Assembly (NCBI RefSeq): GCF_013376455.1
Contig: NZ_CP045504.1
Span: 2,129,001-2,193,000, forward strand
Reading direction: 5' to 3'
Length of the DNA: 64,000 nt
Source of the DNA: Desulfolutivibrio sulfodismutans DSM 3696
GTDB lineage: Bacteria > Desulfobacterota > Desulfovibrionia > Desulfovibrionales > Desulfovibrionaceae
Shown: piece by piece, positions 6,679 to 53,978 of the stretch
How the letters are laid out: each line of letters opens with the position of its first letter
How positions within the stretch are numbered: the stretch's first letter is position 1
Translations under genes and position numbers: made by a program
The notes under the pieces: model-generated
What the model was told of the DNA's origin: nothing
Database searches by the model: none
Seen by the model: only the letters and a program-made list of their open reading frames with translations

Positions 6679-9192
<2,514 letters not shown>

Positions 9193-9330
9193 GGAAATCT
9201 CCTTGGCGCCTCTGGGAAGCCGCAGGAGGCGGCGTGCTGGTCGGGAGCGGGCATGGCCGCTTCGAGGCTGTGTTGTCGGGTGAACGCCGCGCGCCTGCCG
9301 GGCGGGCTCTGTTTCGTCGGGCGAACGATG

Positions 9331-9810
9331 CTAGCCGGGTTGGGTCGATGGGTCAACAGCGGGCTTTTTCATGGAAAAATCGACCTTGATCTTGAAAAGC
9401 TTTTCGGCCGGAAGGTTCAGGATCTCGATGCCCGTCGCGGCGTGTATGGCCGCCAGGGTGTCCCGCATGCTGTCCCGGCCGGGGCCGATCAGGGTGAACC
9501 AGACATTATAGGGATGGGCGCGCAGGTAGTTGTGGGTCACGCCGGGGTGCCGGTTGACCTCGGCCACGAAGGCCTCGATGCGGTCCTCGGGAACCTGGGC
9601 CGCGCACAGGGTGCTTAAAAACCCCAGCTTGCGGGACTGGAAGCTGGCCCCGATACGGCGGATGACGCCCTTTTGCTTGAGCGCCCGGACCCGGGCCAGG
9701 GTCTCGGCCTCGGTCAGGCCCACTTTTTCACCGATGGCGGCGTAGGGGCGCGCGCACAGGGGAAAGCCGGACTGAATCTCGGAGAGGATGTCGCGGTCGA
9801 TGGAATCCAT
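9331..9810 (-). CDS. Siroheme decarboxylase subunit (AhbA/AhbB type, Lrp/AsnC-like)
   Basis: A 159-residue protein with an AsnC/Lrp-like winged-helix N-terminus (MDSIDRDILSEIQSGFP) and a C-terminal alpha/beta domain. The phrases RRIGASFQSRKLGF and THNYLRAHPYNVWFT are typical of Ahb/NirD-L proteins. These decarboxylate siroheme to didecarboxysiroheme in the alternative heme pathway of sulfate reducers. The His in the LRAHPYN loop matches the position used for substrate binding in the family. Whether this is the A or the B subunit cannot be settled by eye, and the partner gene is not in the window. A plain Lrp-type regulator is the less likely alternative. Confidence 0.82.
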   Translation of the reverse strand: MDSIDRDILSEIQSGFPLCARPYAAIGEKVGLTEAETLARVRALKQKGVIRRIGASFQSRKLGFLSTLCAAQVPEDRIEAFVAEVNRHPGVTHNYLRAHPYNVWFTLIGPGRDSMRDTLAAIHAATGIEILNLPAEKLFKIKVDFSMKKPAVDPSTQPG

Positions 9811-9841
9811 CGGCGCTACATAGGGTCGGGATGGGCGGCTG

Positions 9842-11167
9842 TCAATTGATCCCGCCGGTTTTTGCAGGCTCGCCCGCCTCCCGCTCCACCCGGTTGCGGC
9901 CGCCCTCCTTGGCCCGGTACAGCGCCGCGTCGGCCCGCTTGACCAGCGGCTCCGGCGGTTCGCCCGGCCGGTACTGCGCCACCCCGAAGCTCGACGTCAC
10001 CCCGGGTACGCCCGGAAACGCCTGGGCCGCCACGGCCGCCCGCAGCCGTTCGGCCAATTCCGCCGCACCCTCAAGGCCCACCCCCGGGGCCACCACCAAA
10101 AATTCCTCGCCCCCCCACCGGGCCAGCCGGTCGTTTTCCCGCAAAAGCCCCATGACCAGCCGGGCCATCTCCGTCAGCACCACATCCCCGGCGTCGTGGC
10201 CGTAGGTGTCGTTGACCCGCTTGAAGTGGTCGATGTCAAAGAGGATGACCGACAGGGGCGTGGCGTAACGCCTAGCCCGGGAGGTCTCGTCGGCCAGGAT
10301 CTCCGAGAGCTTGCGCCGGTTGAAGGCCCGGGTCAGGGGGTCCACCGTGGCCAGGTCGATCAGGTCGCGTTTTTCGTATTCGAGCTCCGTGATGTCGGTC
10401 AGGGTAAGCATGAGGCGATCCGCCCCGGGCAGGCGGGCGGCCGCGGCCTGGAACACGTGGGCCGGGCGGCCGGGGTGGCGGGGATGCACGAGGCTGACGA
10501 TGTGCTCCCGGTCCAGGGGGTCGTCCAGGACGTCCCGGGCGAACCGGGCCGGGTCGGCCAGGGGCGCGTCCTCCACCTGGAAAAAATCGCTTAAGCCAAT
10601 CCCCATGGCCTGGAATTCATGGAAGGAGGACAGGCCCATGCAGCGCAGGAGCCCCCGGTTGACGTATTCCAGCCGCCCCCGGGAAAAAATGGCCTGGGGA
10701 TGGGGCGAGGCGTCCAGGAAAAAACGCACCAGCCGGTCGGATTCCCCGGCCGAGCGGCGCAGGGCCGCCACCCGGGCGGCGTCCTCCACCAGCGGCAAAA
10801 GCCGCACCGGGTCCACCGGGATGGGCACAAGCCGCACCGTGGGCAGAAAAAGGGCGCCCGCCAACTGCGTGACCTGCCTGGCCGTGCCCAAGAGGAAAAA
10901 CGGCACATGCGGATCCGTGTCGGCCGCCGTCAGAGCCATGCTCACGCCGTCAAGCCCCGGCATCTGGATCCTGGCCATCACCAGGTCCGGCTTGTGGCGG
11001 CCGAAAAGGGCCAGGGCCTCCACGCCGTTTTCAGCCTCAAGGACCAGGGAAAAGCGGGCCCGCAACAGCCGCCCCCACACGGCCCGGCCCACCGCGTCGG
11101 GATCGGCCAACAGCACGCTTTGATGCTTGCCCGGGGCGTAATGCTCCGCCGGATCGGTCATGTCCAT
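9842..11167 (-). CDS. Diguanylate cyclase with degenerate receiver and PAS domain
   Basis: A 441-residue three-domain protein. Residues about 15-130 form a receiver fold in which the phospho-acceptor Asp is replaced by Arg66 (LVMARIQMPG) and the conserved Lys near the end is also lost (VPIPVDP). Residues about 145-265 look like a PAS domain. The C-terminus is a GGDEF domain with the active GGEEF motif and an intact product-inhibition site RxxD (REND) five residues before it. It should make c-di-GMP, gated by something other than phosphorylation. The ATG at 11167 was chosen over an in-frame GTG at 11251; neither has a strong ribosome-binding site. Confidence 0.85.
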   Translation of the reverse strand: MDMTDPAEHYAPGKHQSVLLADPDAVGRAVWGRLLRARFSLVLEAENGVEALALFGRHKPDLVMARIQMPGLDGVSMALTAADTDPHVPFFLLGTARQVTQLAGALFLPTVRLVPIPVDPVRLLPLVEDAARVAALRRSAGESDRLVRFFLDASPHPQAIFSRGRLEYVNRGLLRCMGLSSFHEFQAMGIGLSDFFQVEDAPLADPARFARDVLDDPLDREHIVSLVHPRHPGRPAHVFQAAAARLPGADRLMLTLTDITELEYEKRDLIDLATVDPLTRAFNRRKLSEILADETSRARRYATPLSVILFDIDHFKRVNDTYGHDAGDVVLTEMARLVMGLLRENDRLARWGGEEFLVVAPGVGLEGAAELAERLRAAVAAQAFPGVPGVTSSFGVAQYRPGEPPEPLVKRADAALYRAKEGGRNRVEREAGEPAKTGGIN

Positions 11168-11491
11168 GCGCGGCTTTTTGGTTTCCGGGGTCGGCCCGGG
11201 TTGCTCCCATCGGACAGGGAACGTCCGATATGCCTTTGTCTTAGTTCCCACGACCCGTTTTGTAAACCTGACGAGGCGCGGCCCTCTGGCCGACGGTTGT
11301 TTTTGGACCGGAAATGGTTACATTCAAAAAAAGGCGCATCGCCTGCGCACAGCAACGTTCTCGCCCGTACTCGTATGGCGTTCACAAAAACATGCTAGCT
11401 TTTTGTGAATAAAAATAACAAATTCAATATGTTGATGCTTTCAAAGGCATAACGGAAATTCCCACTCGCCACACCAGGCAAGGAGGTCGCC
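11168..11491. other. Intergenic region between divergent genes
   Basis: It separates the diguanylate cyclase (minus) from the Pro-rich repeat protein (plus). The section 11380-11460 is AT-rich and holds a 10-bp inverted repeat. If the GTG at 11251 is the real cyclase start, the region shrinks to 240 bases. Confidence 0.55.
11381..11409. promoter_or_regulatory. Inverted repeat, possible operator
   Basis: TTCACAAAAA (11381-11390) and TTTTTGTGAA (11400-11409) form a perfect 10-bp inverted repeat around CATGCTAGC, about 85 bases upstream of the Pro-rich gene. There is no U-tract logic for a terminator between divergent genes, so an operator is the simpler reading. Confidence 0.45.
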
Positions 11492-11923
11492 ATGAGACGG
11501 CTCACCATTCTATGCGCCTTGGCGTGCATGGTTCTCGCGGCCGGCATCTGCGCGCCGCCTGCGTTCGACCTGGGCAGTCCCTTGGCCATCGGCATTACGC
11601 AGGCCTTCGCCCAACCCTGGGGTCCACCGCCTCCGCCGCCGCCTCCCGGCTACCGGCCGGGCTGGGGTCCGCCGCCTCCTCCGCCGCCGTATGGCTACCG
11701 GCCGGGCTGGGGCCCGCCGCCGCCTCCGCCGCCGTATGTCTATCGGCCGGGCTGGGGCCCGCCGCCACCGCCGCCTCCCTACTGGGGGGGCTACGGTCCC
11801 TGGCGGCCGGGACCGCCGCCGCCTCCGGGCTGGGGCCCGGGTCCAGGCCCGTGGCGACCGGGACCGCCGCCTCCGCCGCCCCCGCGCCCCGGTTGGGGGC
11901 CGAGGCCGGGACCGTGGCGTTGA
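11492..11923 (+). CDS. Secreted Pro/Gly/Trp repeat protein
   Basis: A 143-residue protein with a signal peptide (cleavage near AFA-Q, residue 40). The mature part is almost entirely repeats: three perfect-frame units YRPGWGPPPPPPPYx (residues 54-98), then shorter GPWRPGPPPPP-type units to the C-terminus. Such sequence is extended and unstructured and resembles cell-surface or matrix proteins. No enzymatic function is expected. AGGAGG precedes the ATG. A strong terminator follows. It shares its poly-proline style with the protein at 6299-6595. Confidence 0.75.
   Translation: MRRLTILCALACMVLAAGICAPPAFDLGSPLAIGITQAFAQPWGPPPPPPPPGYRPGWGPPPPPPPYGYRPGWGPPPPPPPYVYRPGWGPPPPPPPYWGGYGPWRPGPPPPPGWGPGPGPWRPGPPPPPPPRPGWGPRPGPWR
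11651..11785 (+). repeat. 45-base tandem repeat, three units, coding
   Basis: Three in-frame 45-base units encode the 15-residue repeat YRPGWGPPPPPPPY plus one variable residue (Gly, Val, Trp). The near identity of the DNA units suggests recent slippage or recombination, so copy number may vary between strains. Confidence 0.85.
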
Positions 11924-43785: not shown

Positions 43786-46700
43786 CTATGCCGCCGCCTC
43801 AGCGGAAGGACGCTGTTTGGGCAGCGTGAAGGTGAATGTCGTCCCCTGGCCCGGGACCGAGACGACCTGGACCGTCCCCCCCAGGCGTGTCAGCTGCTCC
43901 CTGACGGCGAACAGGCCGACCCCCCTGCCGGAGAGGACATCGGAGGCCTTTTGCGTGGTCATGCCGCGTTCAAACACAAGGTTCAGATCCTGGAGCGTAT
44001 CCCCCGTGGCGCTGACGCCCATCTCCCTGGCCTTGTCCTGCACGGCCTGGACGCCAATGCCCCGGCCGTCGTCCTCCACCACGATCCGCACCCTGTCGCC
44101 CAGATCCGTCACCCGGCAGGCCAGACGCCCGGCCTCGGGCTTGCTTGCGTCCAGGCGGATCTCCGGCTCCTCGATGCCGTGGACCACGGCGTTGCGAAAG
44201 ACGTGCACCAGCGCGGAGACAAACGGGGCATACGTCTTGGGCGGCACCCGGACGGCATCGCCTTCCACCGCAAAGGGCTGCACGATCTTGCCCGTGCGTT
44301 CGGCCAGTTTGCGGGCCGATTCGGGATACGCCGCCAGCATGTGGCGCAGATCGCGCTCCCGCAGACGGCGCACCTCCTGCAAAAGGACGCCATCCCCGGC
44401 CGTGAGCCCGATCTCCCCGGCCCGGGCCGCCAGTCGGACGGCCAGCCCCTCCAGGCGTTCCACCAGGTCCACGGAAACCGGGACATGGCGGGCCTGTTCG
44501 AAAAACGCCTCCCCCAGGGCCGCCCGGATGATCCCCAGGTCGTCGTCCAGGGCCGATCCGCAGCCGCTTTCCTCCCAGGCGGCCCTAAGCCGGGCCTGAT
44601 CCCACCGCCGCTCCCCTGCGGCCAGCCGCGCGGCCAGGGCGGTTTCCAGCCGATGCAGGGCCTGCGGGGAATGGATGAACTCCAGTTGCAGAAAAAGCCC
44701 CTTGAAGGTGTGGACGTGGCGATAGAGGGTCGGCAGGCCATAGCCGCCGTCCCCGTCGTCCATATCGCCCACATCGTCCGTGCCGTCCGGGCCGTCTGGG
44801 CCGCCGGGGGCTCGGGGGGGCTCGCCGCGCACCCTGGTCCGGGCGAAACGTTCGTAGTCGGCCAAAACGCTCATGAAGTCGTCCCTGTCGCGCGCCGCCG
44901 CCACGATCATGGCCAGGCGTTTGCGCTCCCGCTCCACCTCGGCCTCCAGGGCGCACTTGTCGGTCACGTCCGTGAGCACGAGCATGATCCGCCCGCCCTC
45001 CAGAAACCGGTATTGCGCGTCCACCTGGGTGTCGCCCAGGACGAAATGCCTGGGCATGAGCGTCAGGAGCAGATCGCGCTTGAAGGCGTCCTCCTGGGCC
45101 AGGATGCGCCTGACGTTGTGCCCGAAGACCTCCCCGGCCTTGGCGTCGGCAGGATACAGAAGGGCCGGGATGGGCGACCCGGCGGCCGGTTTGCCGAACA
45201 GTCGGTCGCATTCCCTGGACAGCTCCGGCTCGACCAGTCCGTCGGCGGCAAAGGAGAGAAATCCCTGGCCGGAGTTGTCGAGCAGGGTGGATATCTTGGC
45301 ATGGGCCCGGCCCAGATTGTCGCTGGCCAGGGTCACGGCCCGGTTCAGGCGCACGAGCTTGCGGTTCCAAAAGACGATGGCCGCCACGGCCACGGCCAGC
45401 CCGGCCAGGATCTTCCAAAACAATTCGTAGTCGAACCCGTGCTCGAAGGTGATGGATATCCAACGCGAAAAGATGTCGCGGCGCTCGTTCTCGGTCAGCG
45501 AGGCCACGGCCATGTCGAAGACCTGGGTCAGGTCGGGATTTTGCTGGCTGACGCCGACCGCCAGGGACAGGTCGCCCTCCAGCTTGCCCGCGATCTTGAT
45601 GTCGGCGAAACGGCCTTGGCCGATGGCGTAGCTGATGGCGGCCAGAGTATCCACAAAGGCGAATATCTCCCCGCTTTGGAGCATCCGCAGCCCGTCCTCC
45701 ACGCTTGGCGCCCTGACCACCTCCACCTCGGGATAGTCGCGCAGGGCGTCCTCGATCCAGGCCTGCCCGGCGACCGCGCCGATGCGTTTCCCGGCCAGGG
45801 AGGCCATGTCGGGCACGAACATGGTGTCGGTCAGGGTGGCCGCCACCACGGGAAAGGTCAGGTAGGGACGGGTGAACGACATGGACCGCCTGCGTTCGTC
45901 CGTGGGGGGGATAGCCGGGATGATGTCGCACAGGCCCTCGGCCAGGCCCTCCAGGCTCTGCTCCCAGGTCTTCGTGGGAACCAGCTTCAGGTCCACGCCG
46001 ATGCGCTCGGCCATCAGGCGGACGTAGTCGGCGGCCATGCCCTCGAAGTTCCCCTGTTCGTCGATGCGGCCAAACGGCATCCAGTTGGGATGCACGCACA
46101 GGCGCACCGCGCCCAGCCGGGAGAGCATCTCCTGCTCCGACGGGGTCAGGGGGATGTATTCCTTGTCCATCCGGTCAGCGGCAAGCCACTTTTGCCTAAG
46201 CTCCGACATCTGCCGTTCGCCCACCGTGGCCATGGCCTTGGCCAGGATGCGGGCCAGGACAGGCTTGTTTTTGCTTACGCCGAACCGGATGTTGACGGTG
46301 GGGAAATGCCTGTTGTCCACCAGGGCCCGGGTCTGCAAATTGAGCAGGAAATGTTTGCGGATCAGGTAGTTTTGTACCGGAAGGCTGTCGATGGCCGCAT
46401 CGGTCTCGCCCGTGGCCACCGCCTGCAGGCAGCTGAGGGCGTCCGGCAGGGCCTTGAGCCTGATGTCCGGGTAGTTGGCCGCAAGCACTTTCTCCGTGAA
46501 AAACCCCTTGGAGACGGCCACGGTGCGTCCCGCCAGACTCTCCAGGGTCGGCGGGGGCCCCTTGCCCTCCCGCGAGGCGATGCCGTGGACCAGGGTGGCG
46601 TAAGGGGGCGTAAAATCCGTATAGGCCTCGCGCTCCGGAGTCGAGGCCATGTTCATGAGGACGTCCAGGGTTCCGCCTTGCAGCCGGTGCTCGAACTCGT

Positions 46701-47694
46701 CCCATTCCGGCCCGATCACATACCTGACCTTGAGCCCGGCCATCCTGGCCAGCATGTTCATGTAGTCCACGGAATAGCCCTGGGGCAGGCCGTTGACGTT
46801 GAAGTTGAAAGGCGGCCAGTTGGATTCGTTGGAGGCGGTGAACACGGGATTGTCCCTGATGTAGCGCCGCTCCTCGGCCGTGAGGTTCAGGCGCGCCGCG
46901 CCGGATGCGGAAACGTCGGGGCGCAGCCAGTCGTCTTCCATGGCGTGCATGGCCTCAGGCGGCAGGGCGGCCTGGGCCTTGGCCAGGATGGAGGCCAAAA
47001 GGGGCCAATCCTCGCGGATCAGGGCATAGACCTCGAAGCTGTGCTCGGGAAGGCTCAAGACGCGGATGTCGTCGCGGCCCATTTCCCGGATGGTCCGGGT
47101 CAGCCCGGCCATGTCGCCGAGCATGGCCGCCGCCTTGCCGGTGGCCGCCATGTCCACGGCCTGGCGCGGGGTGTCCGCAACGAGCAGGTCCATGCCCGGA
47201 TGTCCTTCGCGGGCGAACTCCGCCGCCAACGAGCCCCTGACCACCGCAACAGGGCGGCCCGAAAGCTCCTCCAGGCTCTTCGCCTGGCTGGTCGCCAGAC
47301 AGGCAAGGCCCATGGGGACATGAAACAGGGGACCGGAAAAAAGGGCGAAAGCGGCCTGGCCCGGGATTATGCCCGAGCCGCCGACCATGTCGATGCCCTT
47401 TTTTTTCAGGGCGTCGAACACGGGCTGGATGTCTTTTCCGTCGCCTATGGGCGTGAAACGGAACTCCATGCCGGTGAGCCCGGCCATCTGCCGGTAATAG
47501 TCATGGAGGATGCCGTCGGAGCGTCCTTTCTCCATGATGGAGAGCGGCGGCCTGTCGGCGTCCGACCACGTGACGACGGGGTGGGCCGCAACGAATGCCT
47601 GCTCTTCAGGGGTGAGATTGAGTTTCTGGGCGTCGGCCAGACCGGCCCACAGGACGACAACAAAGACGTACATCAAGGCCACACGTGTTTTCAT
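43786..47694 (-). CDS. Giant membrane CheA-like kinase with three periplasmic solute-binding domains
   Basis: A 1302-residue protein. After a signal peptide come three type-3 solute-binding (HisJ-like) domains at about residues 30-255, 270-505 and 520-755, each introduced by a TPEEQAFVAAHPVV-like phrase. One membrane helix follows near 765-785, then a PAS-like domain at about 815-920. An Hpt domain has the phosphorylatable His995 in HVHTFKGLF. A CheA-like ATPase follows, with N-box HVFRNAVVHGIEEP, G1 VEDDGRGI and G2 SGRGVGL. There is no CheW-like regulatory domain and no HisKA dimer domain, so it is neither a standard sensor kinase nor a standard CheA. It lies 107 bases beyond the GGDEF gene and may belong to the same unit. 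The start has no clear ribosome-binding site. Confidence 0.85.
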   Translation of the reverse strand: MKTRVALMYVFVVVLWAGLADAQKLNLTPEEQAFVAAHPVVTWSDADRPPLSIMEKGRSDGILHDYYRQMAGLTGMEFRFTPIGDGKDIQPVFDALKKKGIDMVGGSGIIPGQAAFALFSGPLFHVPMGLACLATSQAKSLEELSGRPVAVVRGSLAAEFAREGHPGMDLLVADTPRQAVDMAATGKAAAMLGDMAGLTRTIREMGRDDIRVLSLPEHSFEVYALIREDWPLLASILAKAQAALPPEAMHAMEDDWLRPDVSASGAARLNLTAEERRYIRDNPVFTASNESNWPPFNFNVNGLPQGYSVDYMNMLARMAGLKVRYVIGPEWDEFEHRLQGGTLDVLMNMASTPEREAYTDFTPPYATLVHGIASREGKGPPPTLESLAGRTVAVSKGFFTEKVLAANYPDIRLKALPDALSCLQAVATGETDAAIDSLPVQNYLIRKHFLLNLQTRALVDNRHFPTVNIRFGVSKNKPVLARILAKAMATVGERQMSELRQKWLAADRMDKEYIPLTPSEQEMLSRLGAVRLCVHPNWMPFGRIDEQGNFEGMAADYVRLMAERIGVDLKLVPTKTWEQSLEGLAEGLCDIIPAIPPTDERRRSMSFTRPYLTFPVVAATLTDTMFVPDMASLAGKRIGAVAGQAWIEDALRDYPEVEVVRAPSVEDGLRMLQSGEIFAFVDTLAAISYAIGQGRFADIKIAGKLEGDLSLAVGVSQQNPDLTQVFDMAVASLTENERRDIFSRWISITFEHGFDYELFWKILAGLAVAVAAIVFWNRKLVRLNRAVTLASDNLGRAHAKISTLLDNSGQGFLSFAADGLVEPELSRECDRLFGKPAAGSPIPALLYPADAKAGEVFGHNVRRILAQEDAFKRDLLLTLMPRHFVLGDTQVDAQYRFLEGGRIMLVLTDVTDKCALEAEVERERKRLAMIVAAARDRDDFMSVLADYERFARTRVRGEPPRAPGGPDGPDGTDDVGDMDDGDGGYGLPTLYRHVHTFKGLFLQLEFIHSPQALHRLETALAARLAAGERRWDQARLRAAWEESGCGSALDDDLGIIRAALGEAFFEQARHVPVSVDLVERLEGLAVRLAARAGEIGLTAGDGVLLQEVRRLRERDLRHMLAAYPESARKLAERTGKIVQPFAVEGDAVRVPPKTYAPFVSALVHVFRNAVVHGIEEPEIRLDASKPEAGRLACRVTDLGDRVRIVVEDDGRGIGVQAVQDKAREMGVSATGDTLQDLNLVFERGMTTQKASDVLSGRGVGLFAVREQLTRLGGTVQVVSVPGQGTTFTFTLPKQRPSAEAAA

Positions 47695-47801
47695 GAAAGC
47701 GACCGCCGGTTGTCATGTTCGGCACAGCCTGAAAAAGCCGTCCTCTCTTCCACGGGGCGGAACACGCGCCTTGGCCGACCGGAAAAACACGCCCGGGCCG
47801 T

Positions 47802-48713
47802 TTAGCCGCTTTCCTCCGCCAGGCACACCCGGTCCCGGCCCAGGGTCTTGGCCCGGTACAGGGCCGCGTCGGCCCGGCTCACCAAGCGCGAGGGCAGCTC
47901 GCCGGGTTGCGATTCCGCCACCCCGAAGCTCATGGTCAGCTTCGAGCCAGCGGCGTACTCCCGCGCAACCACCGCCCGGCGCAACTTTTCGGCCAGCTTT
48001 CCGGCCCCGGCCAGACCCGTTTCCGGACACACCACCAAAAACTCCTCCCCGCCAAACCGCCCCACCACATCCGTGCCCCGCACCCCTGCGGACAGCACCC
48101 CGGCCACGGCCTGAAGCGCTTCGTCGCCCACGGCGTGGCCGTGCTGATCATTAATGAGCTTGAAATGGTCGATGTCGCTGATGATGACCGAAAAGGCCCG
48201 GCCATGCCGATCCCGGCGCGCGGCCTCCTCGGTCAAAACGCGGTCCAGGTTCAGCCGGTTGGCCAGACCCGTCAGGGGATCGGTGGACGAAAGACGGCCC
48301 AGCTCCTTATTTTTGAGGGCCAGTTGGGCATGGGCCTCGGCCAGCCGGTTCTGGGTCTCCTTGAGTTCGGAGATGTCCACGGCGATGGAATACTTGACCA
48401 CCCTCCCGTCGGGCCAGCTCATGGCCCTTTCCTGGAGCTGGAACCAGCCGTCGGCGGCGTCGTTGAAATGCTCAAAAACCAGGGTCTTGCCGTTGGGCAG
48501 GCCGTCTTTGGTGATCAGCTCCCGGATGCGGCAATAGGAGCAGGGCTTGTCCAGGTCGTAGAGGGTCTTGTGGCAGGGTTTGCCCACATGGTCGCCGAAA
48601 AGCTCCCGAAAATGCTTGTTGCTGAAAATAATCTCGTAGGTGGTCACATCCACGGCATAGATGCCGAACGGAATGAGGTCGAAATGGGACTCGAACAGGC
48701 TGCTCTCGATCAT
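47802..48713 (-). CDS. PAS-GGDEF diguanylate cyclase
   Basis: A 303-residue cytoplasmic protein. Residues 1-125 are a PAS domain; 126-300 a GGDEF domain with the active GGEEF motif and an intact RxxD inhibition site (RGTD) five residues before it. The PAS domain carries a Cys triad C47-x10-C58-x2-C61 that is also found at equal spacing in the next protein. It overlaps the histidine-kinase gene upstream by four bases (ATGA), so the two are coupled. It probably converts the phosphorelay signal to c-di-GMP. Confidence 0.92.
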   Translation of the reverse strand: MIESSLFESHFDLIPFGIYAVDVTTYEIIFSNKHFRELFGDHVGKPCHKTLYDLDKPCSYCRIRELITKDGLPNGKTLVFEHFNDAADGWFQLQERAMSWPDGRVVKYSIAVDISELKETQNRLAEAHAQLALKNKELGRLSSTDPLTGLANRLNLDRVLTEEAARRDRHGRAFSVIISDIDHFKLINDQHGHAVGDEALQAVAGVLSAGVRGTDVVGRFGGEEFLVVCPETGLAGAGKLAEKLRRAVVAREYAAGSKLTMSFGVAESQPGELPSRLVSRADAALYRAKTLGRDRVCLAEESG

Positions 48714-49882
48714 TGCGGCGGTTCACCCCCTTCGCTGGCTGCGGCTGTTGCGGGTACGGGAAAACAGACCGTGACCGTGGTGAACCCGGGCCGTGAGGCG
48801 TCGAGGGAGGCCCGGCCGCCGTGGGCCGTGACCGCAAGCATGGCCGAATAGGCCCCCAGGCCCGTGCCGTCGCGCTTGCCCGAGGTGACGTATTTCTGGA
48901 AAAAGCGTCCCCGGATGTCCTCGGGCACCTCTCCGGCGTTGTGGATGGACACCACGGCCTCATCCCCCACCCGGTCGAGGGACACCGTGATCTCCTGGCC
49001 GGGGGGCGAGGCCTCCACGGCGTTTTTCACCAGGTTGGAGAGCATGCTGTAGCACAACAGCTCCTCGCCCTGGACCGCCAGCACATCGCCATCCGCCGCA
49101 GGCCTGCCCTGAAAGAGCACCCGCACCGGACGATCCGCAAAAAAGACATCGGCGGCCACATCCTGGGCGGCCTTGCGGGCCACGGCCACCAGGTTCACCT
49201 CCACCGGCCGCAGATGGTAGGTACCGGTCTCCAGGCGGTACAGGTCGAAGGTCCGGTTGATCATGTTGAGCATGGTGATCCCGGCCTCCTCCATCATGTG
49301 CGCCAACTTCACCCCTTCCGCGTTGAGGCCGTAGTCCGGCAAAAGGGGCGGAATGCCGATCAGGGCGTTGAGCGGGGTCTTGAGGTCGTGGCGGGCAATG
49401 CGGTCCACATGCTCTCGAAGGCGCACGTTTTCCTGCAACAGCTCGTTTTGCCGCGACAGCTCGCGATTTTTCAGGGCCAGCTCGGCATGGGCCTCGGCCA
49501 GCCGGTTCTGCACCTCTTTAAGCTCCGTGATGTCCACGGCGATGGAATACTTGACCACCCTCCCGTCGGGCCAGCTCATGGACTTCTCCTGGAGCTGGTA
49601 CCAGCGGTCGTCCTTGTCGTTGAAATGCTCGAAGATATAGGTCTTGCCGTTGGGCAGGCCGTCGCGATCCACCAGATTGCGTATCTTGCAGAACAGGCAG
49701 GGTTGGGGGGACTCATAAATGGCTTCGTGGCATCTGCGCCCGGCCAAGTCGCCCAGCCGGTCCCGGAAGTGGCGGTTGACGAAGATCAGATTCAGAGTGG
49801 CCACGTCCACCACGTAGATGCCGAAGGGGATGACGTCGAAATGCGTCTCCAGGAGGCTGCTTTCCAGCATGTTGCCGCTCAT
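48710..49882 (-). CDS. PAS-domain sensor histidine kinase
   Basis: A 390-residue soluble kinase. Its PAS domain (1-125) is clearly related to that of the GGDEF protein (WPDGRVVKYSIAVDI occurs in both) and has the Cys triad C51-x10-C62-x2-C65. A coiled coil follows, then a HisKA-type dimerisation helix with RHDLKTPLN (His165), then an HATPase with LVKNAVEASPPG and TSGKRDGTGLG. It has no membrane segment. The gene overlaps both neighbours by four bases, and the CheY-like gene upstream may supply its receiver. Confidence 0.9.
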   Translation of the reverse strand: MSGNMLESSLLETHFDVIPFGIYVVDVATLNLIFVNRHFRDRLGDLAGRRCHEAIYESPQPCLFCKIRNLVDRDGLPNGKTYIFEHFNDKDDRWYQLQEKSMSWPDGRVVKYSIAVDITELKEVQNRLAEAHAELALKNRELSRQNELLQENVRLREHVDRIARHDLKTPLNALIGIPPLLPDYGLNAEGVKLAHMMEEAGITMLNMINRTFDLYRLETGTYHLRPVEVNLVAVARKAAQDVAADVFFADRPVRVLFQGRPAADGDVLAVQGEELLCYSMLSNLVKNAVEASPPGQEITVSLDRVGDEAVVSIHNAGEVPEDIRGRFFQKYVTSGKRDGTGLGAYSAMLAVTAHGGRASLDASRPGFTTVTVCFPVPATAAASEGGEPPQ

Positions 49883-50256
49883 TCGAGGTATTTCCCGGCC
49901 ACGGCCTCCAGGTGCTCGGCCAGTTTTTCCATCTTCACGGGTTTGAGGACATAGCCCTTGGCCCCGGCCTCGATGGCGTCCATGACCATCTGCTCCTGGC
50001 CGTGGGAGGTGACCATGACGATGACCGCCTTGTCGTCCACGGCCATGATGCGCTTGGTGGCCTCGATGCCGTCCATGTCCGGCATGGTGATGTCCATGGT
50101 CACCAGATCAGGCTTCACGCGCGGATAGTCCTCGGCGGCCTGGCGGCCGTTTGAGGCCACATGGACCACCTTGTGCCCCAGATCCTCAATCATCTTGACC
50201 ATCTTTTTGATGGTCAGATTGGAATCGTCCACCACCATGATCGTCAGCGGTCTCAT
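49879..50256 (-). CDS. Single-domain CheY-like response regulator
   Basis: A 125-residue receiver with all active residues: Asp10/Asp11 for the metal, phospho-acceptor Asp55 (MDITMPDMDG), Thr83 (VMVTSHG) and Lys105 (VLKPVK). There is no output domain, so it acts by binding a partner or by passing the phosphoryl group on. GGAGG precedes the ATG. It lies three bases after the CheX-like gene and overlaps the kinase gene, giving the order kinase, phosphatase, receiver. Confidence 0.95.
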   Translation of the reverse strand: MRPLTIMVVDDSNLTIKKMVKMIEDLGHKVVHVASNGRQAAEDYPRVKPDLVTMDITMPDMDGIEATKRIMAVDDKAVIVMVTSHGQEQMVMDAIEAGAKGYVLKPVKMEKLAEHLEAVAGKYLE

Positions 50257-50259
50257 GGT

Positions 50260-50784
50260 TTATGCCTCCACGTAGTCGAGGGTGTCGTCAAAAAGCTCCC
50301 CCGGGCCGATGAGATGGATGTTCAGGCCCCCGAAAGCCGTCGCCAGGCTGGCCGAGGCGAACTTGGCCCCCCGGTGGCGCATGACGCTTTTGGCCTCGGT
50401 GATCACGATGGGCGGCGACAGGCCGATGACCCGGCCCTGGGCCGACATGTCGGCCAAAGCGTTGCCCACGATGATGTTGATGATGTCCCCGGCGGTTTCC
50501 TCGACATACGTCTCGCGTTCCTCTTCGGCAATATCCAATTCCTGGCAATAGACCTCGAAGGCCTTGATGATCAGCGATTCGTCGAAGCTATAGGCCAGGT
50601 AGAGCTTCATGTTGTCCGTGGCGCTCATGATCGCGGTCAGATGCTTGAGGTCGAGTTTTTGCACGTCGTCGAGGTGCTGGGACTGGGTCGTAACCTCGAT
50701 GCCCAGCTCCTCGCCCAAAAAACCCACCGTGCGCACGGTGAGGGCCTGCAAGAGCCGATGGATGTCCACGGAGGGGGCGCTCAT
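50260..50784 (-). CDS. CheX-like phosphatase
   Basis: A 174-residue protein of the CheC/CheX/FliY fold. The catalytic helix is EETAGDIINIIVGNAL. The family consensus ExxN appears as DxxN (Asp100, Asn103). IGLSPPIVI and FASASLATAFGGLNIHL fit the later CheX strands. CheX removes the phosphoryl group from CheY. The start overlaps the stop of the big kinase gene as ATGA and AAAGGAG lies upstream. Its position directly before the CheY-like gene supports the role. Confidence 0.85.
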   Translation of the reverse strand: MSAPSVDIHRLLQALTVRTVGFLGEELGIEVTTQSQHLDDVQKLDLKHLTAIMSATDNMKLYLAYSFDESLIIKAFEVYCQELDIAEEERETYVEETAGDIINIIVGNALADMSAQGRVIGLSPPIVITEAKSVMRHRGAKFASASLATAFGGLNIHLIGPGELFDDTLDYVEA

Positions 50785-53700
50785 GACTGCTCCTTTCCCT
50801 TCTCGGTTGCTGACAGCGGTACACGCACGGTAAACGTCGTCCCCCGGCCGGGACGGCTTTCGATGTCCATATCCCCGCCAAGCCGTTTGGCCGCCTCCAG
50901 CACGGCGGCCAGCCCCACGCCGCGTCCGGCGGCGCCTGCGGCCTTGGCGTCCCCGTCGGCGGTGCTCAGGCCCTGGGCCAGCACCAGGCGCACCACCTGG
51001 CCGCCGTCCATGGCCGCGAGCTCGTCCTTTTCGGCGATCCCCAGGGCGGCGGCCTTGTCCCGCACGGCCACGGGATCGATCCCGGCCCCGTCGTCGGACA
51101 CCCGAAGACACAGCAGGCCGTCCTTTTTCTCCACGGACACGGCCACGGTCCCGGCCTCGGGCTTGCCAAGCCGGAGGCGCTCCTGGGGAGGCTCGATGCC
51201 GTGGGCCACGGCGTTGCGCACCAGATGCACCATGCGCCGGGCCAGCGGGCCGAACAGGTCCGGGTCCACGGGCACGGCCTGGCCGGACACCGGCGGCACG
51301 GTCACCGCCTTGCCCAGGCGCTCGGCCAGTTGGACGGCGGTTCCCAGGGGAACGGCCAGCAGCTCCCGCATGTCTACATGCCTAAGGGTCCGGGCCCGTT
51401 CAAGAAGCGCATGCAGACGCGGGTCCGGAGTCGGCAGGGCGGCGGCCAGGCCCTCGGCCAGGCCCTCCAGTTCCCGGGCCGCCTCCTCGCCGATGCACAC
51501 CGCGTCGCGCCGCTTGAAAAAGTCGTCGCCAAGCGTCTGGCGCAAAAGGGCCAGATCGGCCTCCAGTTCCGCCAGCACCGGGGAAAGACGCATCACCCCG
51601 CCAAGCGAGGCCGCCGTGGCCTGCTCCGGGTTAAGGCCCGACAACCGCGATTCCAGGTCGTGCAGGGCGGCGGACACCCGGCGGCATCCGAACAACTGAA
51701 ACAGCCCCTTGAAAGTATGCACCCGGCGGTAGTGGCGGCGCAAGGCCTCACCCGGGGTCTCGCCCGGAGCGACCGGGGTCCGGCAGGTGGACGCAAAGTC
51801 CCGAAAGGAGTCCGCCACCTGGAAAAAATCGCGCGGATCGCGGGCCACGGCCACCACGTTGGCCAGCCGCCCGCGCTCCTTCTCCACCTCGCTCTCCAGG
51901 CGGCGGGCATTCGTGACGTCGGTTAAGACCAGCATCAGCCGCCCGGGCCCGGACATCCGGTATTCCACCTCCAGGTCGCGGTTCCCCAGATGCACGGACG
52001 CAGGCATCAGCGACAGGTACAGCGACCGCCGGAAATCGTCGTCCTCGGCCAGGATGCGGCCGACGTTTTTGGCGAAGTCCCCGCAGGCCCGGGCATCGTC
52101 CGGGAAAAGCAGGGTCTGGATGGTCTCGCCTGCGGGATCGCGGCCGAAGATGTCCAGGCATTCATGGCTGAAGCGGGGCTGCACCCGGCAATCGACCCCA
52201 AAGGACAAGAACCCCTGGCCGGAATTGTCCAGAAGTGCTGACAGCTCCTCCTGGGCCTGTCTGATGGTCCGGTTCAGACGGGTGAGCTTGCGGTTCCACC
52301 ACACGATGAGCACAATGACCAGGGCCGCGCCCGCCGCCACCCGCCACACCAGGGTGTAGTCGAAGCCATGCTCGAAGCGCACGGCCACCCACTTTTTGAA
52401 AATGGCGTCCAGCTCCTCGGCGGCCAGGCTGCTTATGCCCTTCTGGAAAATGGACAAAACCTCCGTCTTCCCCCGGGGTACGGCCAGGGACAGATCCAGA
52501 TGGTCTTCCAGGCGACCCGCGATCTTGAGGCCCGTCAGCCGCTCCTTGTCGATGCGGTAGGCCACGGCCGGAAGCACGTCCACAAAGGCCCCAAGCCCTC
52601 CGGAGGCCACCTGGGACAGGCCTTCGGCCTCGGTGGGCATGTCCACCACGTCCAGGGACGGATACTTGGAGCGCAGGATGGCCGCCGTGGCATGGCTCCG
52701 GACCACGCCCACCCGGTCGTGCATCAGGGCCTTTGGCCCGTCTACGAAGGGATGGTCGGCGCGGGTGGCCACCACCAGGGGCAGACGCAGATAGGGGCTG
52801 GTGAAATCGAGAAAGCGACGGCGCTCGGGCGTTTCCACGGCGGCGGCAATGAAGTCGCAGCCGCCTTTTTCGGCCGTCTCCAAGGTCTGGGACCAGGAGG
52901 CGGTGGGAACCAGGCGGGTCTCCACCCCAAGCCGCTCGGACAAAAGGGCCAGGACGTCGGCCGCCATGCCCTCGAACCGACCGGTTTCGCTGATCCGCTC
53001 GATGGGCGGCCAGTCCGGGTCCACGCAATAGCGCAGCGAACCCTTGTTTTGCACGAACTCGCGCTCCCGGCGGTTCAGGGTCACCCGGGCCGGGGCCGGG
53101 CCCGCAACGCCCGCAGAGCCGCCCGCCGCGTCGGCCCGGGCCGCCGCCTGCCCCGAGGCGTACAGGGGCAGCCACTTGGCCATGATGGCCGCCTTGTCCC
53201 ACACCGGAATGGCCTTCAGGGCCTTGTCCAGGATGGAGGCCAATTCCGGCATGTCGTCGCGCACCAGGGTGTAGATGTCGAAGGCGAAATCCGTCAGGCC
53301 CGAGACCTTGAGGTTGCTGAGTCCCGCCTTGCGGATGCCGTAGGTGACCACGGCCAGGTTGTCGAGCATGGCCTGGGCCTGCCCCGAGGACACGGCCAGG
53401 AGGGCCTCGGCGGGATCCTCCACCACCAGGAGGTCCACGTCGGGATGGTTGTCCCGGACATATTCGTAGGCCGTGGAGCCGCTGGCCACAGCCACCCGCT
53501 TGCCCTGCAACTCAAGGATGGAACCGGCCATGACGTCGTCCCGGGAGACGATGGCCAGGGGGAAGCGCAAATAGGGACCAGCGAACAGGGCGTATTTTTC
53601 ACGCTCGGCGCTCCGGCCCGTGCCGTCGATCATGTCGATGCGCTTGTCGCGAAGGGCCGCCAAGACCTTGCCGAAGTTCCGGGAATCGCCCTGGGCCTCG

Positions 53701-53978
53701 AACTTGAAGGCCAGGCCCGTCATGGCCGAGACGATTTCGTAGAAGTCGTGGAAGATACCCTGGTACTTCCCGTTCTCCACCATGGCCAGTGGCTCCCAGA
53801 TGGAGTCGCTGAAGGTGATGACCGGATGGGCCTCGATAAAGGCCTTTTCCTCGTCAGTCAGGCCCAGTTCGGGGAGAGTGTCGGCGACAGCCAGGGACGA
53901 TCCGGAAAAAACGGTCGCCAGGACCGCCAGGACCGCCAAAACGCGCCGAAGCGCCGCAACGGGAACAAATGAAGCCAT
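50781..53978 (-). CDS. Membrane CheA-like kinase with two periplasmic solute-binding domains
   Basis: A 1065-residue paralog of the 43786-47694 kinase. Signal peptide (VLAVLAVLATVFSGSSLAVA), two type-3 solute-binding domains at about residues 35-285 and 310-545, one membrane helix, a PAS-like domain, an Hpt domain with His754 (RRVHTFKGLF), and a CheA-like ATPase (N-box HLVRNAVAHGIEPP, G1 VSDDGAGID, G2 AGRGVGLAAV). It lacks P2, HisKA and CheW domains. The ATG at 53978 has GGTGAG upstream and starts right at the signal peptide; longer frames exist. It is first in a coupled set with the CheX-like, CheY-like, kinase and GGDEF genes. Confidence 0.85.
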   Translation of the reverse strand: MASFVPVAALRRVLAVLAVLATVFSGSSLAVADTLPELGLTDEEKAFIEAHPVITFSDSIWEPLAMVENGKYQGIFHDFYEIVSAMTGLAFKFEAQGDSRNFGKVLAALRDKRIDMIDGTGRSAEREKYALFAGPYLRFPLAIVSRDDVMAGSILELQGKRVAVASGSTAYEYVRDNHPDVDLLVVEDPAEALLAVSSGQAQAMLDNLAVVTYGIRKAGLSNLKVSGLTDFAFDIYTLVRDDMPELASILDKALKAIPVWDKAAIMAKWLPLYASGQAAARADAAGGSAGVAGPAPARVTLNRREREFVQNKGSLRYCVDPDWPPIERISETGRFEGMAADVLALLSERLGVETRLVPTASWSQTLETAEKGGCDFIAAAVETPERRRFLDFTSPYLRLPLVVATRADHPFVDGPKALMHDRVGVVRSHATAAILRSKYPSLDVVDMPTEAEGLSQVASGGLGAFVDVLPAVAYRIDKERLTGLKIAGRLEDHLDLSLAVPRGKTEVLSIFQKGISSLAAEELDAIFKKWVAVRFEHGFDYTLVWRVAAGAALVIVLIVWWNRKLTRLNRTIRQAQEELSALLDNSGQGFLSFGVDCRVQPRFSHECLDIFGRDPAGETIQTLLFPDDARACGDFAKNVGRILAEDDDFRRSLYLSLMPASVHLGNRDLEVEYRMSGPGRLMLVLTDVTNARRLESEVEKERGRLANVVAVARDPRDFFQVADSFRDFASTCRTPVAPGETPGEALRRHYRRVHTFKGLFQLFGCRRVSAALHDLESRLSGLNPEQATAASLGGVMRLSPVLAELEADLALLRQTLGDDFFKRRDAVCIGEEAARELEGLAEGLAAALPTPDPRLHALLERARTLRHVDMRELLAVPLGTAVQLAERLGKAVTVPPVSGQAVPVDPDLFGPLARRMVHLVRNAVAHGIEPPQERLRLGKPEAGTVAVSVEKKDGLLCLRVSDDGAGIDPVAVRDKAAALGIAEKDELAAMDGGQVVRLVLAQGLSTADGDAKAAGAAGRGVGLAAVLEAAKRLGGDMDIESRPGRGTTFTVRVPLSATEKGKEQS

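Follow-up and report, generated by a model that had tools for sequence, protein, structure and literature searches.

A candidate array-free CheA-type signaling pathway with its own CheX and CheY in Desulfolutivibrio sulfodismutans

Introduction

Can a CheA-type kinase be driven directly by a sensor domain in its own chain? CheA has been held to need receptors and CheW. The question is raised by five genes of Desulfolutivibrio sulfodismutans DSM 3696, which lie in a stretch of 64,000 nucleotides (positions 2129001-2193000 of contig 1, NZ_CP045504.1; hereafter the window) of a genome that totals 4.44 Mb on two contigs. The operon is encoded on the minus strand, as are all features of the window described below, and runs from window position 53978 to 47802. 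Typed with Pfam, its genes are, in order, a sensor kinase (KIN1), a CheX, a CheY, a histidine kinase with a PAS domain (PAS-HK) and a diguanylate cyclase with a PAS domain (PAS-GGDEF). Here a CheA-type phosphotransfer engine that has a CheY and a CheX of its own is fused to sensors, and one sensor has replaced another several times. Judged from sequence and from structure models, the operon probably encodes an array-free CheA-type pathway in which a ligand would act on KIN1, KIN1 would lead to phosphorylated CheY (CheY-P), CheX would reset it, and PAS-GGDEF would be the likely output at this locus.

An earlier, sequence-only reading of the window had described five tightly packed minus-strand genes of these types, and open reading frames and Pfam matches agree with it, down to the junctions (three 4-base overlaps and one 3-base gap). 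Scans for promoters and terminators at the locus gave nothing beyond chance.

A sensor kinase with a CheA-type core

KIN1 (50781..53978; 1065 aa) comprises a signal peptide, two solute-binding domains, one transmembrane span, a linker, an Hpt domain and a CheA-type ATPase; the signal peptide and the hydrophobic span were judged by eye from the sequence. The first solute-binding (VFT) domain (residues ~38-275; 53154..53867) is matched by SBP_bac_3 in two stretches and by EvgS over residues 37-271. The second (residues 302-532; 52383..53075) is also matched by SBP_bac_3; among solved structures it is closest to 7ejg chain C and BvgS, from which no ligand was assigned. These two SBP_bac_3 domains place a sensor in the chain itself, unlike in CheA (receptor genes were not searched by profile).

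Behind the membrane span, a linker beginning LLDNSGQGFLSF (residues ~582-690; 51909..52235) was delimited by residues invariant over 10 kinases and by secondary structure in the model. Among the 10 kinases compared, this linker is the signature of the KIN1 kinase family. It reads as PAS-like, and no database match of it to PAS was obtained. The Hpt domain (residues 746-814; 51537..51743) has an HTxKG motif and helices in the model. Its Pfam match is borderline, at 20.5 bits against a cut-off of 24.6 (23.9 in the genome search, or 24.6 with neighbors). The histidine that had been named as its phosphoacceptor, His754 (51717-51719), was correctly chosen: all of 7 aligned kinases have it, and 35/35 kinase rows contain the motif HT[FLYC]KG. 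This row tally, like those for the CheX motif and the PAS rows below, includes duplicate loci (L062 and L068 are of one genome, L070 and L164 of one contig; others are possible).

The ATPase (residues 884-1056; 50811..51329) is matched by HATPase_c, by CheA in phmmer and by structure alignment. An AlphaFold model of the core (506 aa, pLDDT 80, 8 sequences in the alignment) had as its best match the CheA P4 domain 1i59 (Z 21.8, 2.2 Å, 178 aligned residues; VIA-align), ahead of the ordinary histidine kinase HK853 (2c2a; Z 16.5). By sequence and by fold, the ATPase of KIN1 is nearest to CheA P4, ahead of ordinary histidine kinases. The P3P4 chain of Thermotoga CheA (4xiv) was aligned over model residues 257-497 (213 residues), but at 5.1 Å, and no H-kinase_dim match was listed; this suggests a P3-like part in KIN1. 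The search used the whole core, and ATPase relatives fill its match list.

What is missing from the chain is a CheW domain. No Pfam match to CheW was found in KIN1, whose chain ends shortly behind the ATPase. Between the G2 box and the C-terminus lie 40-58 residues in 33/35 kinase rows where the box was found, and 136-291 residues follow P4 in the canonical CheAs of the same genome (five with the C-terminus inside the locus). The comparison thus upholds the description of KIN1 as sensor, membrane span, Hpt and CheA-type ATPase in one chain that lacks CheW, and CheW is absent from the vicinity too: the nearest of 21 matches in the genome is ~59 kb away.

The inventory of five genes stood, and its completeness did not, as a paralogous sensor kinase directly downstream had been left out. 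KIN2 (43786..47694; 1302 aa) begins 107 bases downstream of PAS-GGDEF and has three SBP_bac_3 stretches, an HATPase_c match and the same core as KIN1, to which it is 41% identical over residues 36-1055. It is also present in genome G002; no copy was seen in the remaining operon stretches examined in relatives.

CheX, CheY and the two PAS proteins

CheX (50260..50784; 174 aa) scores 41.1 bits against a Pfam cut-off of 27 and carries the motif DxxN (D100, N103). The top eight matches of its model (pLDDT 75) are entries titled CheX, CheC-like or putative chemotaxis protein (Z 17.6-14.3), followed by FliM and CheC. The motif Asn is kept in 26/26 rows, and its first position is Glu in 5/26 and Asp in 21/26. 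CheY (49879..50256; 125 aa) is a single receiver by Pfam (Response_reg) and alignment, with phosphoacceptor Asp55 and the receiver residues DD, Asp, Thr/Ser and Lys all present.

PAS-HK (48710..49882; 390 aa; HisKA and HATPase_c; His165) and PAS-GGDEF (47802..48713; 303 aa; GGDEF by Pfam, with GGEEF at 221-225 and an I-site at R212/D215) share a PAS domain that is 68% identical between them, a likeness absent from the sequence-only reading. A pattern C-x(8-13)-C-x2-C (Cys51/62/65 in the kinase, Cys47/58/61 in the cyclase) is present in 44/44 PAS rows of histidine kinase and cyclase (window 47802-49882 and relatives), and the cysteines are possibly a metal, heme or disulfide site. In its own genome this PAS has two matches near 1e-73, both in the operon, and the next stands at 8e-11. 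Distant modules and the genus of the window have the RxxD inhibitory site in the cyclase, but the Solidesulfovibrio rows lack it (loci listed for this observation: PAS-GGDEF of L061, L161-L164, L166, L167, L169, L170 and L172).

How do these genes stand to the canonical chemotaxis genes of the same genome? Seven frames with both Hpt and CheW matches were counted as canonical CheAs. CheX has four matches in the genome, two of them above the cut-off, and none lies within 180 kb of any of the seven. Two of the four adjoin CheW-less kinases, namely KIN1 and the kinase of L063. The latter is a third CheW-less kinase of the genome (L063:7117-10666; contig 1 ~4340116-4343665), with a sub-threshold CBS-like N-terminus; beside it lie a CheY of its own and a protein of 328 aa whose C-terminal part matches CheX weakly. 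A weak CheX match (15.7 bits; contig 1:2347517, L185 6422-7138) is found shortly behind a hybrid kinase that has Hpt and receivers. The second contig, of 52 kb, carries a CheW-bearing CheA at 47334-48989 (594-aa frame).

Conservation of the gene set

Is this gene order peculiar to one genome? The complete set was found in the same order in G001 and G002, which are of the same genus as the window, and in G027. In G017 the kinase faces the other way, and the genes are ordered PAS-HK, CheX, CheY, PAS-GGDEF. L173 has all five genes in a divergent arrangement, and its kinase carries a dCache_3-type sensor where KIN1 has solute-binding domains. Because the five genes co-occur in several genera and have twice been rearranged, their linkage is more than chance. 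The conserved synteny that the sequence-only reading had proposed to look for is thus seen across several genera, and the objection that the order might be unique to one genome is ruled out.

A scan of the contigs of the named genomes gave 59 loci. Relatives of KIN1 with at least 48% identity occur at seven of them (five Solidesulfovibrio, one Desulfovibrio sp. and one metagenome-assembled genome of Desulfovibrionaceae); six have the whole set, and the seventh ends inside KIN1 at a contig end. The other 52 loci were dropped as support, having neither a linker-Hpt nor a CheX match (blastp, 1e-6); this check covered linker-Hpt and CheX matches, and the tblastn range of L125 extends to residue 1055. 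The operon CheX was found in 13/14 genomes of the genus of G027, taken as Solidesulfovibrio, and in 11/11 of those of good quality. Over 20 modules with operon-type CheX, the distances of kinase, CheX and CheY correlate with r of 0.88-0.91 (0/5000 permutations); seven modules with a longer CheX-like protein, L172 and the kinases that lack CheX were left out.

A wider kinase family

The kinase family was searched for with a linker and Hpt profile made from ten kinases and blind to neighboring genes. The genome tallies of these searches are lower bounds, because the first-look candidates scored in each genome were capped in number. Matches were found in at least 8/297 Desulfobacterota genomes (phylum draw) and at least 20/247 (order draw). 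Removal of the overlap left 33 kinases in 25 genomes, and the surroundings of all 33 were examined. An own CheY and a CheX neighbor accompany 28 of the 33, with 21 clear CheX proteins and 7 CheX-like ones below the Pfam cut-off. KIN1-type kinases make up 14 of the 28 (the CheY frame of L172 lacks its first residues). In another seven the sensor differs (dCache_2, dCache_3, a receiver at the N-terminus, or no recognized domain), and CheX is above the Pfam cut-off in all of them. The last seven are of a third type with only sub-threshold CBS-like matches, in three of the four kinases scanned; their CheX-like proteins (302-371 aa) keep ExxN in 7/7 cases. PAS-GGDEF is the kinase's own in 20/33, stands before KIN2 in two more and was not found near 11. 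Beside one kinase of the KIN1 family, CheX and CheY are fused in a single 301-aa protein (L174:7409-8314). The chance of a CheX in a 14-kb context is ~1%, a figure from arithmetic on the four matches in the 4.44 Mb own genome and not from a run control. A family kinase with an N-terminal receiver (L178:7014-8852) adjoins a hybrid kinase with two receivers (8849-11923), and this may be a relay feeding the Hpt-ATPase core.

The profile also matched outside the phylum. At least 6/398 Pseudomonadota genomes and 2/27 genomes behind named loci (one shared) gave eight kinases. Seven of these have CheY and a CheX above the Pfam cut-off within a few genes, and one has CheY alone. Their sensors include 4HB_MCP, HAMP, GAF or PAS matches in 6/8 (some sub-threshold) and none in two. 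At L191 and L203 a small protein with a partial MCP signaling domain stands between kinase and CheX; proteins of 255-305 aa with such a domain lie near CheW-less kinases at L191:7843-8610, L203:7900-8682 and L212:7847-8764. At least 4/294 Planctomycetota genomes matched, with five kinases, a CheX beside one and a single CheY-like receiver beside three. No PAS-GGDEF of the operon kind was seen beside the 13 kinases of these two phyla. A protein with a NIR_SIR (nitrite/sulfite reductase) domain adjoins a divergent kinase relative in two phyla (L187:3029-4141 and L213:7534-8607) and is a possible redox-enzyme-like partner.

Over all three phyla, 36/46 kinases have a CheY together with a CheX or CheX-like neighbor. 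On sequence evidence, a dedicated CheX and a dedicated CheY go with the kinase family as its usual predicted partners, and sensor and output vary. The set of five genes at the present locus forms one branch within the wider family.

Proposed mechanism and alternatives

What might the operon do? Its anatomy, the absence of CheW, the folds, the co-conservation and the swapping of sensors were computed directly, and a pathway can be proposed on them. A periplasmic ligand bound in the tandem solute-binding domains would change KIN1 across the membrane. The PAS-like linker would couple this signal to the CheA-type ATPase which, to judge by the anatomy, would phosphorylate His754 in the same chain or in a dimer. 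The phosphoryl group would pass from His754 to Asp55 of CheY, as the pairing of the genes and the CheX-CheY fusion of a relative suggest. CheX, from its fold and motif, is predicted to dephosphorylate CheY-P, as CheC, CheX and CheZ do in chemotaxis. In the least certain step, CheY-P would most probably act on the PAS domain common to PAS-GGDEF and PAS-HK, which would change the level of cyclic di-GMP (c-di-GMP) and feed back on CheY phosphorylation. The PAS is the candidate target because it is nearly confined to the operon, stands on both cyclase and histidine kinase and recurs with unrelated sensors. To judge by its position, KIN2 would feed the same CheY as an additional input with a different tuning. 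The sequence-only reading of a self-contained sensory unit is supported as regards the fusion, the dedicated CheX and CheY and the co-conservation. Its word phosphorelay is not, as the route would be a His-to-Asp pathway and not necessarily a phosphorelay.

Several observations weigh against this mechanism. The Hpt match of KIN1 is borderline, and that of KIN2 is weaker still (13.6 bits). Most CheX rows (21/26) have Asp where characterized CheX has Glu. In the third type, the CheX match of the 302-371 aa neighbor is below the cut-off in 7/7 (17.5-24.8 against 27 bits), and 4/5 Planctomycetota kinases, the most distant ones, lack CheX by the profiles used. No own CheX and CheY accompany 5/33 Desulfobacterota kinases: KIN2 (twice), each time behind a full operon; L064; L176, at a contig end but with a PAS-GGDEF; and L187, a weak match on a short contig. 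Since no PAS-GGDEF was found near 11/33 Desulfobacterota kinases or beside any of the 13 from the other phyla, c-di-GMP is not a universal output. The three invariant cysteines suggest that the PAS may sense redox or a cofactor on its own. Finally, shared vertical descent can give correlated trees, and the correlation of distances is no proof of interaction.

Does CheY-P have another target? KIN1, CheX and CheY may form an array-free pathway whose CheY-P acts on the flagellar motor or elsewhere, with PAS-GGDEF and PAS-HK as a separate redox or cofactor pair that shares the transcript. The 11 Desulfobacterota kinases with no PAS-GGDEF nearby fit this alternative, as do the invariant cysteines in 44/44 PAS rows and the seven CheW-bearing CheAs, from whose number motility is judged likely. 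Yet PAS-GGDEF recurs with solute-binding, dCache_3, dCache_2, receiver and some unrecognized sensors, and also in rearranged operons, and the PAS is nearly confined to the operon in its own genome. This alternative is given a small but real probability. A further possibility turns the roles of the kinases round: PAS-HK, whose HisKA H-box is intact and whose chain includes no receiver, would be the main CheY kinase, and KIN1, with its borderline Hpt, would mainly modulate or drain, so that two kinases and one phosphatase tune one receiver. PAS-HK was found in 1/7 other-sensor modules (L173), whereas the kinase core, CheX and CheY persist, and the Hpt histidine is kept in 35/35 rows; such an arrangement is considered very unlikely.

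Hardly credible is an operon that serves as an accessory of a canonical array, in which CheX and CheY would work for the CheW-bearing CheAs and KIN1 would be an ordinary sensor kinase that stands there by chance. The genome does hold seven canonical CheAs. However, the CheW match nearest to the operon is ~59 kb off, canonical CheAs have no CheX match less than 180 kb away, and the association of kinase, CheY and CheX or CheX-like protein is that of 36/46 kinases over three phyla. The array-free pathway from ligand through KIN1 to CheY, with CheX as reset and PAS-GGDEF as likely local output, is the reading preferred here as probable.

Evolution and significance

Could kinases of this kind have preceded the chemosensory array? 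A tree of P4 domains (47 rows) groups CheAs with CheW-less kinases, apart from HisKA kinases. Six CheW-bearing CheAs form a branch of their own (support 81, not starred) that lies among kinases lacking CheW. When the CheW-less kinases were all placed in a single clade, the resulting tree scored 3.7 log units above the free quick search (p-AU 0.736). The P4 tree has a very long branch to the HisKA outgroup and three rows with long ends. Its rows do not include the kinases of L060, L067, L070, L071, L073, L074, L161, L162, L166, L167, L172 and L176, or the one canonical CheA that is truncated by a locus end (L012). It is compatible with the CheW-less kinases as ancestral or as a sister group. 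A broad, undescribed array-free class in at least three phyla can be imagined, made up of any sensor with a linker-Hpt-P4 kinase, CheX, CheY and often PAS-GGDEF. It would represent a stage before CheW and the receptor array, with canonical CheAs arising from it or beside it. This is rather unlikely, and its already low estimate was lowered slightly because the one-clade tree scored higher, which makes a sister-group relation at least as good as an ancestral one.

The operon offers a minimal chemotaxis-like circuit for reconstitution, and its relatives form a natural series of sensor fusions for testing direct control of a CheA-type ATPase. In sulfate reducers it may also link ligands of the periplasm to c-di-GMP, and the family provides material on how two-component kinases gave rise to chemosensory arrays.

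Comparison with known systems

No published description of this gene set was found in the open-licence literature by titles and the starts of abstracts, and the passages available of PMC2577667, PMC9321776, PMC5231405 and PMC4618731 describe nothing of the operon's kind. The closest comparison is with CheA. KIN1 resembles it in an Hpt separate from the ATPase, in the P4-type ATPase, in having a P3-P4 chain among its best structural matches and in its CheY and CheX partners. It differs in lacking CheW (P5), in its fused periplasmic sensors and membrane span and in having no CheW gene nearby. In the part available of a survey of 13,673 CheA sequences, P1, P3, P4 and P5 are in all, CheW is in 100%, and CheA is without a sensor domain (PMC10782961). 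The set was drawn through the MiST database (PMC10782961), so the presence of CheW may have been a ground for selection. As KIN1 lacks P5 and carries sensors, its assignment as a CheA was rejected, though it would be predicted to work like one.

The hybrid kinases BvgS and EvgS share with KIN1 the tandem periplasmic solute-binding domains and the single membrane span, a layout given in the part available of PMC8534201, which also gives them DHp, receiver and Hpt domains. KIN1 has no HisKA or fused receiver match, and a CheA-type core instead; by Pfam it was rejected as a member of this family, whose sensor it has and whose HisKA core and relay domains it does not.

The CheX proteins of Thermotoga, Borrelia and Desulfovibrio (1squ, 3hzh, 3h4y) are like the window's CheX in fold (Z 17.6-14.3) and in the motif Asn. 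The window's CheX differs in that Asp replaces Glu in its clade (DxxN, against ExxN in Borrelia CheX) and in that it adjoins a kinase with no CheW domain. In Wsp-type chemosensory systems a CheA-type kinase feeds a diguanylate cyclase, and these systems have a receptor, CheW proteins, methylation enzymes and a receiver fused to GGDEF. The operon is like them in its CheA-type kinase and cyclase, whereas its receiver is a separate CheY accompanied by a CheX.

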